Assembly: GCA_002238505.1 (NCBI GenBank)
Contig: MPMM01000004.1
Location: 62,001-126,000 of the forward strand
DNA length: 64,000 nt
DNA from: SAR202 cluster bacterium bin22
GTDB taxonomy: Bacteria > Chloroflexota > Dehalococcoidia > Lucifugimonadales > UBA3495
Reading direction: 5' to 3'
Below, in pieces: positions 1 to 7,345 of this stretch (its first letter is position 1; each line of letters begins with the position of its first letter). The notes below the pieces were generated by a model, which worked only from the letters and a program-made list of their open reading frames with translations, searched no databases and was not told the origin of the DNA. Made by a program: the position numbers and the translations under genes.

Positions 1-107
1 GCAGCCTGGATTCGCCCGACGTCCGCAACCGGGCGCTGGCAGAAATGCAGAGCAGGGCCTTTGCCCACATTCCTTCCGAAGAAACCGGCAGCCAGGGAGA
101 CAGCTAG
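1..107 (+). CDS. ureB: Urease subunit beta, C-terminal end (partial)
   Basis: The frame open from the window start ends at a TAG at 105-107, one base before the ATG of ureC. The last 34 residues read [18 protein letters not shown] and then a polar tail. A 'G-x-LD' turn followed by a short basic helix is how many urease beta subunits (or gamma-beta fusions) end, and the position directly before ureC fits. The catalytic machinery is in UreC; the beta subunit is a structural part of the apoenzyme. The identification rests on position and a short C-terminal pattern, so it is probable rather than certain; the rest of the gene lies outside the window. Confidence 0.7.
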
Positions 108-108
108 T

Positions 109-1827
109 ATGGCGCGAATCAGTCGTCAGCAATACGTCGAACTCTACGGGCCCACAACGGGCGACCGATTCCGCCTGGCCGATACCAGCCTGGTATGCCA
201 GGTGGAACAGGACCTGCTCACCTACGGCGACGAACTGGTTTTCGGCGGGGGCAAGACCGCTCGCGACGGCATGGGCCAGGACCCGGAAATTACCAGCCAG
301 GGCGGCGCGCCCGACCTGGTTATCACCAACGCCATCATCATGGATCCCGTCCTTGGCATATTGAAGGGTGACATCGGAATCAAGAATGGCCACATCGTCG
401 CCATCGGCAAGGCGGGCAACCCTGGGGTAATGGACGGCGTTCACCCCGACCTGGTGGTTGGTCCCGGCACCGAGGTAATTGCCGGAGAACATCTGATAGC
501 TACACCGGGCGGCATAGACGCCCACATCCACATGATTTCACCCCAGCAGGTTTGGCATGCCCTGTCCAACGGCATCACCACCATGCTGGGCGGCGGCACC
601 GGCCCGGCCGACGGCACCAACGCCACCACCTGCACCCCCGGTCCATGGAACATAGCCCGGATGCTGGAGGCTGCCGAGGGTTTGCCGGTCAACTGGGGTC
701 TGCTGGGCAAGGGCAATGCCAGCGTTGCCGCGCCCCTGGAGGAACAACTGCTGGCCGGCGCCAGCGGCCTGAAACTGCACGAGGACTGGGGCACCACTCC
801 CGCCGCCATTGACCGCTGCCTGGAGGTGGCCGACCGGTTCGACGTTCCCGTAGCCATTCACACCGACACCCTCAACGAGGCCGGGTTTGTCGAGGACACC
901 ATCGCCGCCATTGCCGGAAGGGCCATCCATACCTACCACACCGAGGGCGCCGGGGGTGGTCACGCTCCCGACATCATCAAGATTGCGGCCCACCTGAACG
1001 TCCTTCCCTCATCTACCAACCCGACCCGTCCCTACACCGTCAACACCCTGGCCGAACACATGGACATGTTGATGGTCTGCCACCACCTCAGCCCCCGCGT
1101 CCCGGAAGATGTGGCCTTCGCCGAAAGCCGCATACGGCCCGAGACCATGGCTGCCGAGGATGTTCTGCACGACATGGGAGTCATCAGCATGTACTCCTCG
1201 GACTCCCAGGCCATGGGACGGGTGGGCGAGAACTTTACCCGCCTGTTCCAGACTGCCGACAAGATGAGCCAGTTCAAGGGCAAGCTCCCCGAGGACTCTC
1301 CCGACCATGACAATTTCCGGGTCCTCCGCTACCTGGCCAAGTTGACTATCAATCCCGCCGTTACCCACGGTATCTCCCACCTGGTTGGGTCGCTGGAACC
1401 GGGCAAGCTGGCAGACATCGTCCTTTGGCCGGTGGCAAGTTTTGGGGCCAAGCCCAAGCTGATAATCAAGGGCGGCATGATTGCCTGGTCGGTGATGGGC
1501 GACCCCAACGGTTCCATCCCTACTGCCGAGCCCTCTTTCTACCGTCCCATGTTCGGGGCCCTTGGCAAAGCGGTAAATGGCCGGTGCCTCACCTTCGTTT
1601 CCCGGGCCGCCTACGATGCTGGCATCCACCGGGAATTGGGGCTGGACAAGTGGGTGGAACCCGTCCTTGGCTGCCGTCATATCACCAAGCGCCAGATGGT
1701 ACGCAATGACGCCATGCCCAACATCGAGGTTGACCCCGATTCTTACGAGGTAAGGGTTGACGGGGAGATTGCCACCGTCCCCCCGGCCGAAAGGCTGAGC
1801 CTCGCCCAACTGCATTTCCTGGTTTAG
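109..1827 (+). CDS. ureC: Urease subunit alpha (catalytic, nickel)
   Basis: Catalytic subunit of urease, hydrolysing urea to ammonia and carbamate in the cytoplasm; 572 residues, the usual UreC length. The start at 109 gives the family N-terminus [19 protein letters not shown]; an upstream in-frame TTG at 61 would add 16 unrelated residues inside the ureB end. Visible motifs are the metal-binding HIH of the amidohydrolase barrel, GLKLHEDWG with the lysine that becomes carbamylated to bridge the two nickels, [19 protein letters not shown], the mobile active-site flap MVCHHL, and SSDSQAMGR. All residues expected for activity appear present. It lies 1 bp after ureB and 16 bp before ureF, so it is translated as part of the urease operon. 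Confidence 0.98.
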
Positions 1828-1843
1828 GGGGCTGAATCCGCCC

Positions 1844-2554
1844 ATGTTTGACGACTCGCCACAGGGCTTTCTAGCCCTCTTGCAACTGGCCGATTCCTTT
1901 TTCCCCACCGGGGCCTACGCCCAGTCCCAGGGCTTGGAAGGGATGGTAGCCCAGGGCTGGGTCTCCGGCGCCGATGAGGTTCTCGAGTACCTGTCTAACC
2001 TGCTGGCCGGGTCCGTCCTGCCTTCTGACGGGGTTGCGCTGCTCCATGCTCATCGCCTTGCCGGTGAGGGTGATCTCAAGACATTGGTCCAGGTTGACCG
2101 CCGGCTTCACGCCATGCGACTGCCCGAGGAGATCAGGCTGGCATCGACCCAGAGCGGTCGCCGTTTCCTCGATGAATCTTATGCCCTGCTGGGCACCGGT
2201 GAGGTTCCCACTGTCCTTGATGACTACCGTGCTGCCGTAAGCGCCGGAGACGCTCCCGGCACTGCTGCCGTGGCTTTTGCCCTTTCGGCCCGGGCGGTCG
2301 GCATAGAAGCCGAAAGCGCTTTGTACGCCTGGTGCCACAGTTTCGCCGTGGGCGTGCTGGGAGCGGCCCAGAGGCTCCTGCCGCTGTCCCACTCCGATGC
2401 CCAGCGGATATTGCGGTCCCTGCATGCCGATATTGGCGCCGGCTGCCGGGAAATCAGAGACCGCGACTGGAAAGATATGACCTCGTTTACGCCCCTGGCC
2501 GACATCTCCTCCATGCGCCACGAGTCAGCAGAAGTAAGGATGTTCGCCAGTTAG
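1844..2554 (+). CDS. ureF: Urease accessory protein UreF
   Basis: UreF (236 residues) acts with UreD and UreG in the GTP-dependent delivery of nickel to the urease active site. The N-terminal LLQLADSFFPTGAYAQSQGLEG is the family signature (odd residue runs aside, the LADSxFPxGxxxxSxGLE pattern is intact). An all-alpha protein is expected, and the C-terminus has the conserved RDWKDMTSFTPLADISSMRHE segment that contacts UreG/UreD. It begins 16 bp after ureC and is followed directly by ureG. No ureE lies between ureC and ureF, unlike many urease operons. Confidence 0.95.
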   Translation: MFDDSPQGFLALLQLADSFFPTGAYAQSQGLEGMVAQGWVSGADEVLEYLSNLLAGSVLPSDGVALLHAHRLAGEGDLKTLVQVDRRLHAMRLPEEIRLASTQSGRRFLDESYALLGTGEVPTVLDDYRAAVSAGDAPGTAAVAFALSARAVGIEAESALYAWCHSFAVGVLGAAQRLLPLSHSDAQRILRSLHADIGAGCREIRDRDWKDMTSFTPLADISSMRHESAEVRMFAS

Positions 2555-2578
2555 GCCATGCTCAGGGAGGAGCTAACC

Positions 2579-3205
2579 ATGAAGAGAATACCCAGAATTG
2601 GCGTAGGCGGCCCGGTTGGTTCGGGCAAGACCTCCCTTATCGAGGCTCTGGTGCCGATGATGATGGAACGGGGTCGCCGCCCGCTGGTCATAACCAACGA
2701 CATCTTTACCCGCGAGGATGCCGACCACGTGCGGAGAACGCTGCAGGATGTCTTCGATGTTGACCGCATCCGGGGCGTATCCACGGGAGCCTGTCCCCAC
2801 ACCGCCGTGCGGGAAGACCCCAGCCATAACCTGCTGGCGGTGGAAGAACTGACCGGGCTTTACCCCGATGGCGACCTGTTTCTCATCGAAAGCGGCGGTG
2901 ACAACCTGACCCTCACCTTCAGTCCGGCCCTGGCAGACTTTCAAATCTACGTGATTGACGTCGCCGCCGGCGACAAGATTCCCCGCAAGCGGGGCCAGGG
3001 CATTACCCAGACGGACCTGCTGGTGGTCAACAAAACGGATCTGGCCCCCCATGTAGGCGCTGACCTGGACGTCATGCGTCGGGACCTTGAACTGGTCCGC
3101 GGCGCCAAGCCCTACCTTTTCACCAACTGCCGCAAGGGTAAGGGCCTGGATAAAGTCCTTGACCGGATTCTGGAGGCAGCCGATGCTTTCACCTCCTCCC
3201 AGTAG
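2579..3205 (+). CDS. ureG: Urease accessory GTPase UreG
   Basis: SIMIBI-class GTPase that powers nickel insertion into urease; 208 residues. The P-loop GPVGSGKT is near the N-terminus, followed by ITNDIFTREDA, the metal-binding Cys-Pro-His motif (GACPHTAVRED), the ESGGDNL switch region and the NKTD guanine-specificity motif. The ATG at 2579 is preferred over an in-frame ATG at 2558 because AGGGAGGAG lies 7-15 bases before it and because the family starts just before the P-loop. It overlaps the start of ureD by 23 bp, indicating translational coupling. Confidence 0.97.
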   Translation: MKRIPRIGVGGPVGSGKTSLIEALVPMMMERGRRPLVITNDIFTREDADHVRRTLQDVFDVDRIRGVSTGACPHTAVREDPSHNLLAVEELTGLYPDGDLFLIESGGDNLTLTFSPALADFQIYVIDVAAGDKIPRKRGQGITQTDLLVVNKTDLAPHVGADLDVMRRDLELVRGAKPYLFTNCRKGKGLDKVLDRILEAADAFTSSQ

Positions 3206-4067
3206 GCCGGCTCCGCCCGTCCGGCAGGGGGTGGCGGAACTGACCCTGGCCCTGCGGGACGGCCGTACCCGCCTGGCCCATTCCAGCACGCGGCCTCCCC
3301 TGCAGGTGCAGGGCGCACTATATCCCGACCAGGCCCTGCCCACGCTCGCCCAGGTATTGCTGTCCAACCCCACGGGCGGCATATTTCAGGGAGACGATCA
3401 CCTGGTGTCCATTACCGTGGGTTCCGGGGCGGCGGCCCACGTCTCCACCCAAAGCGCCACCAAGGCCCACGCCATGCCCTGGGGGGCGGCAAAGCAGCGC
3501 GTCAACCTTAACGTAGCGGCAGGCGGATATCTGGAGTACCTGCCTGATCCCTTGATTCCCTACCACGACTCGGACTTTCAGCAGCACACCACCATTTCGG
3601 TAAAGCCCGGCGGCATCCTTGTCTTCTGGGATGTCCTTACGCCCGGGAGGCTGGCCATGGGCGAGGCCTTCCAGTACCGCCGGCTGGCCAATTGCCTCCA
3701 CATCCTCAAGGAAGACGGAACGCCGGCATACATCGACTCCTTTGAGGTCATACCCTCATTGCGAAATCCCCTTTCCGAATACGTGGCTGGACCGCAGGTC
3801 CCCGAATACCGGGCATACAGCCTTGGTTCCATGCTGGTCGTGGCTGAAGGGCGGGAACTGCGGGAACTGCAATTGGAACTTCAGGCCGCCACCGCCCAGA
3901 CCGACCGGGTTGCGGCAGGAGTCACCCTCCTGCCGGGCAGGATTGGCCTGGGAATCCGCGTGCTGGGTCGGGAGTGCGACGAAGTGCAGGAAACCCTGAA
4001 AAAGTGCTGGGCCATTACCCGAAAATGCCTGCTGGGCGTAGGCATCCCCGATTCGCGCAAGTACTGA
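3183..4067 (+). CDS. ureD: Urease accessory protein UreD (UreH)
   Basis: UreD/UreH scaffold that binds apo-urease and passes nickel from UreG/UreF to the active site; 294 residues. Family features include NPTGGIFQGDDHLVSITV, the tract VSTQSATKAHAMP around residue 95, YLEYLPDPLIPYHDSDF, and FWDVLTPGRLAMGEAF. The start at 3183 overlaps ureG by 23 bp; an upstream extension in this frame lies inside ureG and would add unrelated sequence. It is the last urease gene here; a repeat element begins 32 bp after its stop. Confidence 0.95.
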   Translation: MLSPPPSRPAPPVRQGVAELTLALRDGRTRLAHSSTRPPLQVQGALYPDQALPTLAQVLLSNPTGGIFQGDDHLVSITVGSGAAAHVSTQSATKAHAMPWGAAKQRVNLNVAAGGYLEYLPDPLIPYHDSDFQQHTTISVKPGGILVFWDVLTPGRLAMGEAFQYRRLANCLHILKEDGTPAYIDSFEVIPSLRNPLSEYVAGPQVPEYRAYSLGSMLVVAEGRELRELQLELQAATAQTDRVAAGVTLLPGRIGLGIRVLGRECDEVQETLKKCWAITRKCLLGVGIPDSRKY

Positions 4068-6037: not shown

Positions 6038-7345
6038 ATGGCAGGTCAAACAAACCGCGTATTCTACGGTTGGTATGTGGTTATTGGTTGCTCGCTGGTG
6101 GCCCTGGGCACCTCGGGCACCCAGTTCTCCTTCGGCGTGTTCCTTCAGCCAATGACCGAAGAGTTCGGCTGGAGCCGCAGCACCCTTTCCCTCGCCTTTG
6201 GCATCACCTTCATGCTTTCCGGGCTCATGCGCCCCCTGGCCGGTTACCTGGCCGATCGCTACAACCCCAAGCTGGTGGTGCTCTCCGGCGTGGTGATTCT
6301 CGGTGTCATGCTGCTCGTCGTTCCCTCGGTCGAAAGCCTGCTGCAACTGTACGCCGTATTCGCGGTGATGAGCATTGGGCTGACTATGGGCGTCGGCCCG
6401 ATTCTGACCAAGGTCATCAGCGCCTGGTTCTACGCCCACCGGGGTTTGACCCTGGGCCTGAACAGCAGCGCCGGGTCCTTCGGAGCCCTGATCCTGGTGC
6501 CGACGGCCTCCGTATTCCTGATCCTGTTCGACTGGCGAGACGCTTATTACTTCCTTGGCTGCCTTGCTCTGCTGGTTATCCTGCCCGTCGGCTTCCTATT
6601 CATCCGGAACACGCCCCAGGAGATGGGCTTGGAGCCGCTGGGCGACACTTCGGACCTGCGACGACGCCGGGGCACTGGCGGCGAGGACTCAACTCCCCTG
6701 TTTGGCCGTGACGCGACTTTCAAGCAGGCGTTGGGGTCGAACCTGTTTTACCGGCTTACCTTCGGGTACTTCGTTTGAGGTTACTCGATGAGCTTCGTGA
6801 ATGCTCACTTTGTAACCTACGCCAGGGACCTGGGATACCATCCAATGGCCGCCGCCGGGGCCTTCAGTTTGATCGGGGCCGCCGCGGTCATCGGCAGCCT
6901 TTTCATGGGGCACCTTTCCGACAAATACGGACGGCGCTGGCTCCTGTCCGCCTCCTACAATCTGCGTGCCCTCGGGTTTGTGGTGGTCCTGCTGTCCATG
7001 GGAGTGCCGGCCCTGGGAATCCCTCCCCTGGGGTTGGGAACGCTGCTGGCTGGCGTCCTGCTGGTCGGCTTCTCCTGGAACTCTGTGGTCAGCATCACCG
7101 CCGCCTACACTTCCGACCGGTACGGCATCGTAAACCTGGGAACGATTTACGGGACGATGTTCGCGGTCATGCCCATCGGCAGCGGGCTGGGCGCCTTCCT
7201 GGGCGGCCTCTTCTACGACCTCCGGGGAACTTACGACATTGCCATCTGGTCCAACATCATTCTGCTGCTGGTAGCCATGGCCTTCGTGTCCTTCCGGGGC
7301 GAACGGCGCCCTCCGGAGTTAAGCGCCGCCGGTGCAACCGCCTGA
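6038..7345 (+). CDS. MFS transporter with in-frame TGA at a conserved Cys (candidate selenoprotein)
   Basis: Read through a single TGA at 6776-6778, the frame encodes a 435-residue 12-helix major facilitator protein, a normal length. The first half (from MAGQTNRVFYGWYVV, with GGGAG before the ATG) carries helices 1-6, with LADRYNPK in the loop 2-3 position. The second half carries helices 7-12, with GHLSDKYGRRW as the matching repeat. The TGA is codon 247, at the start of helix 7 in GYFV-x-GYSMSFVNAHFV; relatives commonly have Cys-Gly there. The two parts are in one frame, so this is not a frameshift. A stem-loop that could act as a SECIS follows at 6779-6817. Alternatives are a fresh nonsense mutation or an assembly error. 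The substrate is unknown. Confidence 0.7.
6779..6817 (+). promoter_or_regulatory. Candidate SECIS stem-loop after the MFS TGA
   Basis: Immediately after the TGA, GGTTAC (6779-6784) pairs with GTAACC (6812-6817), and inside this TGAGC (6789-6793) pairs with GCTCA (6803-6807). Two further T-A pairs, with one bulged T, leave an apical loop CGTG at 6796-6799. The loop starts 17 nt after the TGA and has G in its second position. Bacterial SECIS elements are recognised by SelB as hairpins whose apical loop lies roughly 16-37 nt after UGA with a G near the loop start. The fit is reasonable but needs the bulge, so it is weaker than the hairpin in the OsmC gene. Confidence 0.5.

Follow-up and report, generated by a model that had tools for sequence, protein, structure and literature searches.

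A predicted selenocysteine-containing MFS transporter gene in SAR202 bacteria

Gene organization and product

The window analyzed is a GC-rich stretch of 64 kb from the genome of SAR202 cluster bacterium bin22 (4.39 Mb, 97% complete). It carries a transporter gene, here referred to as Sec-MFS, whose features are listed in Table 1. The open reading frame contains exactly one internal TGA, which is evident from both the sequence and the translation and lies in the surroundings FGYFV-U-GYSMSFVNAHF, U being the predicted selenocysteine (Sec). When this TGA is translated as U, the product matches the Pfam family MFS_1 (PF07690) in two stretches (4.6e-43), and its AlphaFold model has a 12-helix MFS fold (pLDDT 83.5) which Foldseek matched to MFS structures with TM 0.7-0.8. 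The preliminary description had placed both transporter halves in one frame with a single TGA between them; translation, MFS_1 match and structural model agree with this. A TGA that bridges two long open stretches is found at 40 places in the window, so that an open frame across a TGA means little when taken alone, and the case relies on comparison with relatives.

Table 1. Coordinates of the Sec-MFS gene and of the features at its internal TGA (positions in the window)
Feature	Position	Strand	Remarks
Sec-MFS transporter gene	6038..7345	+	Start ATG 6038; 435 residues with predicted Sec247; terminal stop TGA 7343-7345
In-frame TGA, predicted to be read as selenocysteine 247	6776..6778	+	Halfway along transmembrane helix 7 (residues 235-264, AlphaFold)
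SECIS-like hairpin directly 3' of the TGA	6779..6817	+	
Lower stem, 5' arm GGTTAC	6779..6784	+	Partner 6812-6817; 81% of cells paired in relatives
Upper stem, 5' arm TGAGCTT	6789..6795	+	Partners 6800-6801 and 6803-6807; 99.4% of cells paired
Apical loop CGUG	6796..6799	+	Separated from the TGA by 17 nt; same sequence in 59/59
Upper stem, 3' arm AA-T-GCTCA	6800..6807	+	One bulged base, 6802
His257 codon	6806..6808	+	Counterpart of SfMCT His250 (proton site) in the alignment
Lower stem, 3' arm GTAACC	6812..6817	+	

The upstream neighbor of the transporter gene is a transglutaminase-like ORF which follows a urease cluster, while in the Lucifugimonas group the upstream neighbor resembles glutamine synthetase (both by translation). 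When the flanking ORFs of the window and of 57 other loci were clustered, no neighbor gene was common to both sub-clades of orthologues (see below). The urease cluster (61-4067; ureC, ureF, ureG and a ureD-like gene, by translation) was not found beside the orthologues. Rfam reports 5_ureB_sRNA (RF02514, 75.7 bits) at 260-559 on the minus strand, antisense to the urease alpha subunit gene. This match probably merely reflects coding-sequence similarity, although an antisense RNA remains possible.

Conservation of the TGA and exchange with cysteine

A first survey of 99 relatives yielded 25 genomes with an orthologue, the bin22 genome included, at 60-100% identity and with one TGA each. In all 250 genomes of the order 59 orthologues were identified, 27 of them at 57-100% identity and 32, from another family, at about 34-44%. 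The TGA occupies the identical column in all 59. The motif of one sub-clade is GYFV-U-GY(S/T)MSFVNAH and that of the other is GFF(I/T)-U-GYTMGFVNAH. All 24 of the nearest relatives without a TGA (about 33-37% identical) have Cys in the Sec column. That Cys is usual at residue 247 in relatives had been the initial expectation, and an alignment of homologues at this position had been set as a test that could refute the proposal; it did not. Reversion from Sec to Cys was not seen across the 59 deeply diverged sequences, although TGA is a single step from TGT or TGC. The 'TGA' matches in G068, G095:C9 and G032 were rejected as Sec positions, being terminal or outside the aligned part.

Across 84,980 scanned species genomes, the Sec-MFS gene turned up only in SAR202/Dehalococcoidia/Chloroflexota records, nearly all of them with TGA at the Sec site. 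When 400 genomes drawn from the phylum were searched at E 1e-90, no orthologue was obtained beyond the window's own genome. The cultured Candidatus Lucifugimonas marina JH1073 (CP046147.1), whose genome is closed and was sequenced with PacBio (PMC10444878), carries the gene with its TGA. In the phylogenetic tree all Sec rows lie on one side of a single branch (98/95; 97% of bootstraps), which fits a single origin. Among the Cys forms, the tree places nearest (100/94) an MFS protein of a Thermomicrobiales MAG (CADCWN010000314.1, 5001-6230), which has the motif FFVCGYTM with a Cys codon for the TGA and is 33% identical to Sec-MFS; its branch is long, and its placement is therefore unsure.

Upstream and downstream of the TGA alike, the orthologues show an excess of third-position substitutions, and both sides are inferred to be under strong purifying selection. 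A transporter gene with one internal stop does resemble a pseudogene, and an assembly error is a further alternative. However, the identical stop is present in 59 genomes with both flanks under selection, and also in the closed genome of the cultured strain. Its occurrence at one column in 59 genomes excludes an assembly error and exceeds chance; pseudogene and assembly error alike are regarded as refuted by conservation.

The hairpin downstream of the TGA

Bacterial selenocysteine insertion is expected to involve a stem-loop immediately downstream of the codon, with a small apical loop that contains a guanosine (PMC1088965). The hairpin in the window meets this criterion by its CGUG loop 17 nt from the TGA and its almost fully paired upper stem. 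The latter is formed by TGAGC (6789-6793) and GCTCA (6803-6807), lengthened by TT/AA up to the loop, and the two-part stem with its apical CGTG was found exactly as first described. No Rfam family matches this site.

All seven pairs of the upper stem are formed in 57 of the 59 orthologues, against an expectation of 17% under synonymous shuffling, and Cys relatives have a mean of only 2.4 of the seven pairs. Synonymous shuffling still gives a mean of 5.7/7 pairs, so the protein sequence by itself accounts for part of the stem. The lower stem is weak in many of the 59 rows. None of 500 shuffles, and no slide, reached the covariation score of the hairpin. Columns 16 and 30 pair as A-U in one of the sub-clades and as G-C in the second; this compensatory exchange is one event on a deep branch, and its 5' side also turns Ser into Gly. 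For all these statistics, related rows are not independent. Synonymous codon identity in the ten-codon windows at the TGA is the highest of about 380 windows in each sub-clade taken separately (0.78 vs a mean of 0.50 in one, 0.91 vs 0.40 in the other), and the loop-forming codons TTC and GTG are invariant in the 59 sequences. Examination of the stem in related genomes, proposed at the outset as a check, thus found it kept, with one compensatory pair and a sharp peak of synonymous conservation.

The only serious rival to selenocysteine insertion is a split transporter, in which translation stops at TGA 6776 and re-initiates at ATG 6788 to give two half-transporters. TGAGG lies 7 nt ahead of this ATG, with GAGG overlapping the TGA at Shine-Dalgarno distance, and both Met251 and the GG after the TGA are invariant in the 59 sequences. 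The Gly after the Sec column is, however, invariant in 24/24 Cys relatives too, which makes GAGG a by-product of UGA-Gly, and the Thermomicrobiales Cys form also has Met at this position without any stop. Moreover, the break would sit inside helix 7, the stem buries part of ATG 6788, no split occurs at this point in the Cys relatives, and re-initiation leaves the exchange of Cys and TGA unexplained. Re-initiation is considered very unlikely on these grounds. A gene finder may nevertheless call a separate ORF of 185 residues from ATG 6788 (6776-6790 in the window), and automatic annotation is likely to split the Sec-MFS gene in two or to call it broken.

Selenocysteine machinery

Absence of the Sec machinery from the genome would have refuted the proposal, but tRNA-Sec with anticodon UCA (tca), SelA, SelB and a Sec-type SelD are all present in bin22. 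Its SelD has an in-frame TGA at the catalytic position (motif CAGUAAK). Among the 59 genomes with an orthologue, SelA is above the cut-off in 56 and SelD in 55, and none is without both; SelB is above the cut-off in 86 of 99 genomes of the order. Since the machinery is widespread in the whole order, its co-occurrence with Sec-MFS discriminates little. At the selD loci of SAR202, SelD is itself a Sec form (CAGUAAK, CAGUAGK and related motifs) whose TGA is likewise followed by a hairpin, which means that these genomes depend on Sec for making Sec.

The TGA could in principle be read as another residue, such as Trp by near-cognate read-through or by a suppressor tRNA, and the residue identity is without support from mass-spectrometric data. 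Several observations speak against this. The column holds Cys, not Trp, in 24/24 relatives, a tRNA-Sec with anticodon UCA is present and the hairpin is conserved. TGA also still terminates genes, that of Sec-MFS included, so there is no general reassignment of the codon. Decoding as a residue other than Sec is judged extremely improbable.

A conserved UGA, an exchange of Sec and Cys with relatives, a conserved hairpin, a full Sec machinery and a single clade within SAR202 are established at the level of sequence. UGA decoding is inferred from them, without protein, 75Se or reporter data. The gene is concluded, with a probability of about 0.93, to yield a full-length selenoprotein with Sec at residue 247 of an MFS transporter. 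SelB with Sec-tRNA(Sec) would bind the hairpin just 3' of UGA 6776, and selenocysteine would be inserted at the middle of helix 7. The transporter has 12 helices and is assigned to the SLC16/oxalate-formate (MCT-like) branch.

Relation to known transporters

The solved structures nearest to Sec-MFS are those of SfMCT and OxlT. SfMCT, the L-lactate/H+ symporter of Syntrophobacter fumaroxidans (PDB 6g9x/6hcl, NF049980), is the best sequence match in the PDB (~23% identity) and has the MFS fold in common with Sec-MFS; it is also the best Foldseek match by E-value (6zgs). The proton site of SfMCT consists of a His in TM7 and a Tyr in the TM11-12 loop (PMC6573034). Both are retained, SfMCT His250 corresponding to His257 in 59/59 orthologues and Tyr383 to Tyr399 in 56/56 ungapped ones. 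In contrast, small residues stand in place of the SfMCT substrate residues Arg280 and Asn276. The carboxylate Arg of SLC16/MCT proteins (TM8, SfMCT Arg280) is absent, with A, G, S or T at column 287 in all 59. Sec247 aligns with SfMCT Gly240, and SfMCT Cys239 is one residue away. The score of Sec-MFS against NF049980 is 159.3 bits, half of the equivalog cut-off of 320 bits. By sequence comparison, Sec-MFS is a relative of the SLC16/OFA (MCT-like) branch and not an SfMCT equivalog.

SAR202 bacteria also have Cys-containing MFS paralogues (YFVCGxTT...HFVP), which have the architecture, Gly248, His257, Trp347 and Tyr399 in common with Sec-MFS. They differ in being only about 33-37% identical, in lacking both TGA and hairpin, and in having Gln65, a small residue 125, Thr251 and Asn283. 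The Sec clade has Arg65, Lys125, Asn255 and Tyr371, whereas Cys relatives mostly have Gln, a small residue, Ser/Ala and Ser, respectively; these clade-specific residues suggest a changed pocket.

Possible substrate and role of selenocysteine

In the MFS architecture, helices 1, 4, 7 and 10 line the cavity. Residue 247 is in helix 7, and its alignment to SfMCT together with this architecture makes a position near the central cavity likely. A second conserved Cys column was sought in the 59 sequences and none was found, position 18 being Cys in only 20 of them. An intraprotein selenylsulfide or classical redox pair was rejected for this reason. Without a further conserved Cys, the Sec would have no partner in the protein and could serve as a ligand, attack external thiols as a nucleophile or be sensitive to oxidation.

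Transport itself is inferred, and so is any role of Sec. The redox- or metal/selenium-linked transport suggested at first is conjectural, as the gene context gives no hint of it and the protein has no second conserved Cys for a selenylsulfide. The protein is inferred to be a proton-coupled carrier of a substrate different from that of SfMCT and probably anionic. The likeliest role of Sec, which is far less certain than the Sec reading itself, would be that of a selenolate in or beside the central cavity. The carrier would then move an organic or thiol/metal-bearing anion, with His257 and Tyr399 as the proton site as in SfMCT and Sec as a substrate contact or oxidation-sensitive residue. That Sec247 is directly in the transport path, either as a ligand for an anion that bears a thiol, selenium or a soft metal, or as an oxidation-controlled gate, is a tentative proposal, possible rather than probable.

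Alternatively, Sec may be inserted and yet be functionally neutral, a structural replacement of Cys with transport as in the Cys relatives; this concerns the role of Sec and not the reading of the codon. A neutral Sec would suit the Cys found at this column in every close relative, the lack of a redox partner residue and the unknown function of the transporter. It does not suit the lack of reversion to Cys or the accompanying change of residues 65, 125, 255 and 371, and it is regarded as unlikely but by no means excluded.

Novelty and significance

The 119 prokaryotic selenoprotein families inventoried in 2026 include several Sec transport proteins but no MFS member (PMC13188914), which supports the earlier statement that no Sec-containing MFS transporter is established. 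The known ones are YeeE/YedE, SO_0444 Cu/Zn efflux, SaoP/SaoB/SaoX, mercuric transport protein and E1-E2 ATPase; they are membrane-transport selenoproteins like Sec-MFS, but belong to other families, and many have been implicated in metal or metalloid handling (PMC13188914). The texts of a 2022 review (PMC9312934) and of the 2025 deep-Sep paper (PMC12013277) are without mention of MFS. The NCBIfam matches of the product include no Sec MFS model. Literature searches returned nothing for SAR202 with selenoprotein, and those on selenocysteine in SAR202 or on MFS transporters with Sec gave nothing relevant, most subscription papers being outside the search. Within the literature covered by the search, no Sec-containing member of the MFS is known.

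Few transporter superfamilies are as large as the MFS, and SAR202 bacteria are thought to be important in deep-ocean carbon turnover. Sec-MFS is put forward, in the absence of protein evidence, as a new selenoprotein family of a new fold class that uses the known bacterial decoding route. It would add a selenoprotein family without a thioredoxin-like fold or enzyme context. Should the proposed role hold, it would be the first MFS carrier with selenocysteine in the transport path, in ocean and sponge-associated SAR202 bacteria. Because Candidatus Lucifugimonas marina is in culture and carries the gene, Sec in a membrane carrier is directly testable. The Thermomicrobiales Cys form is a useful natural U-to-C control.
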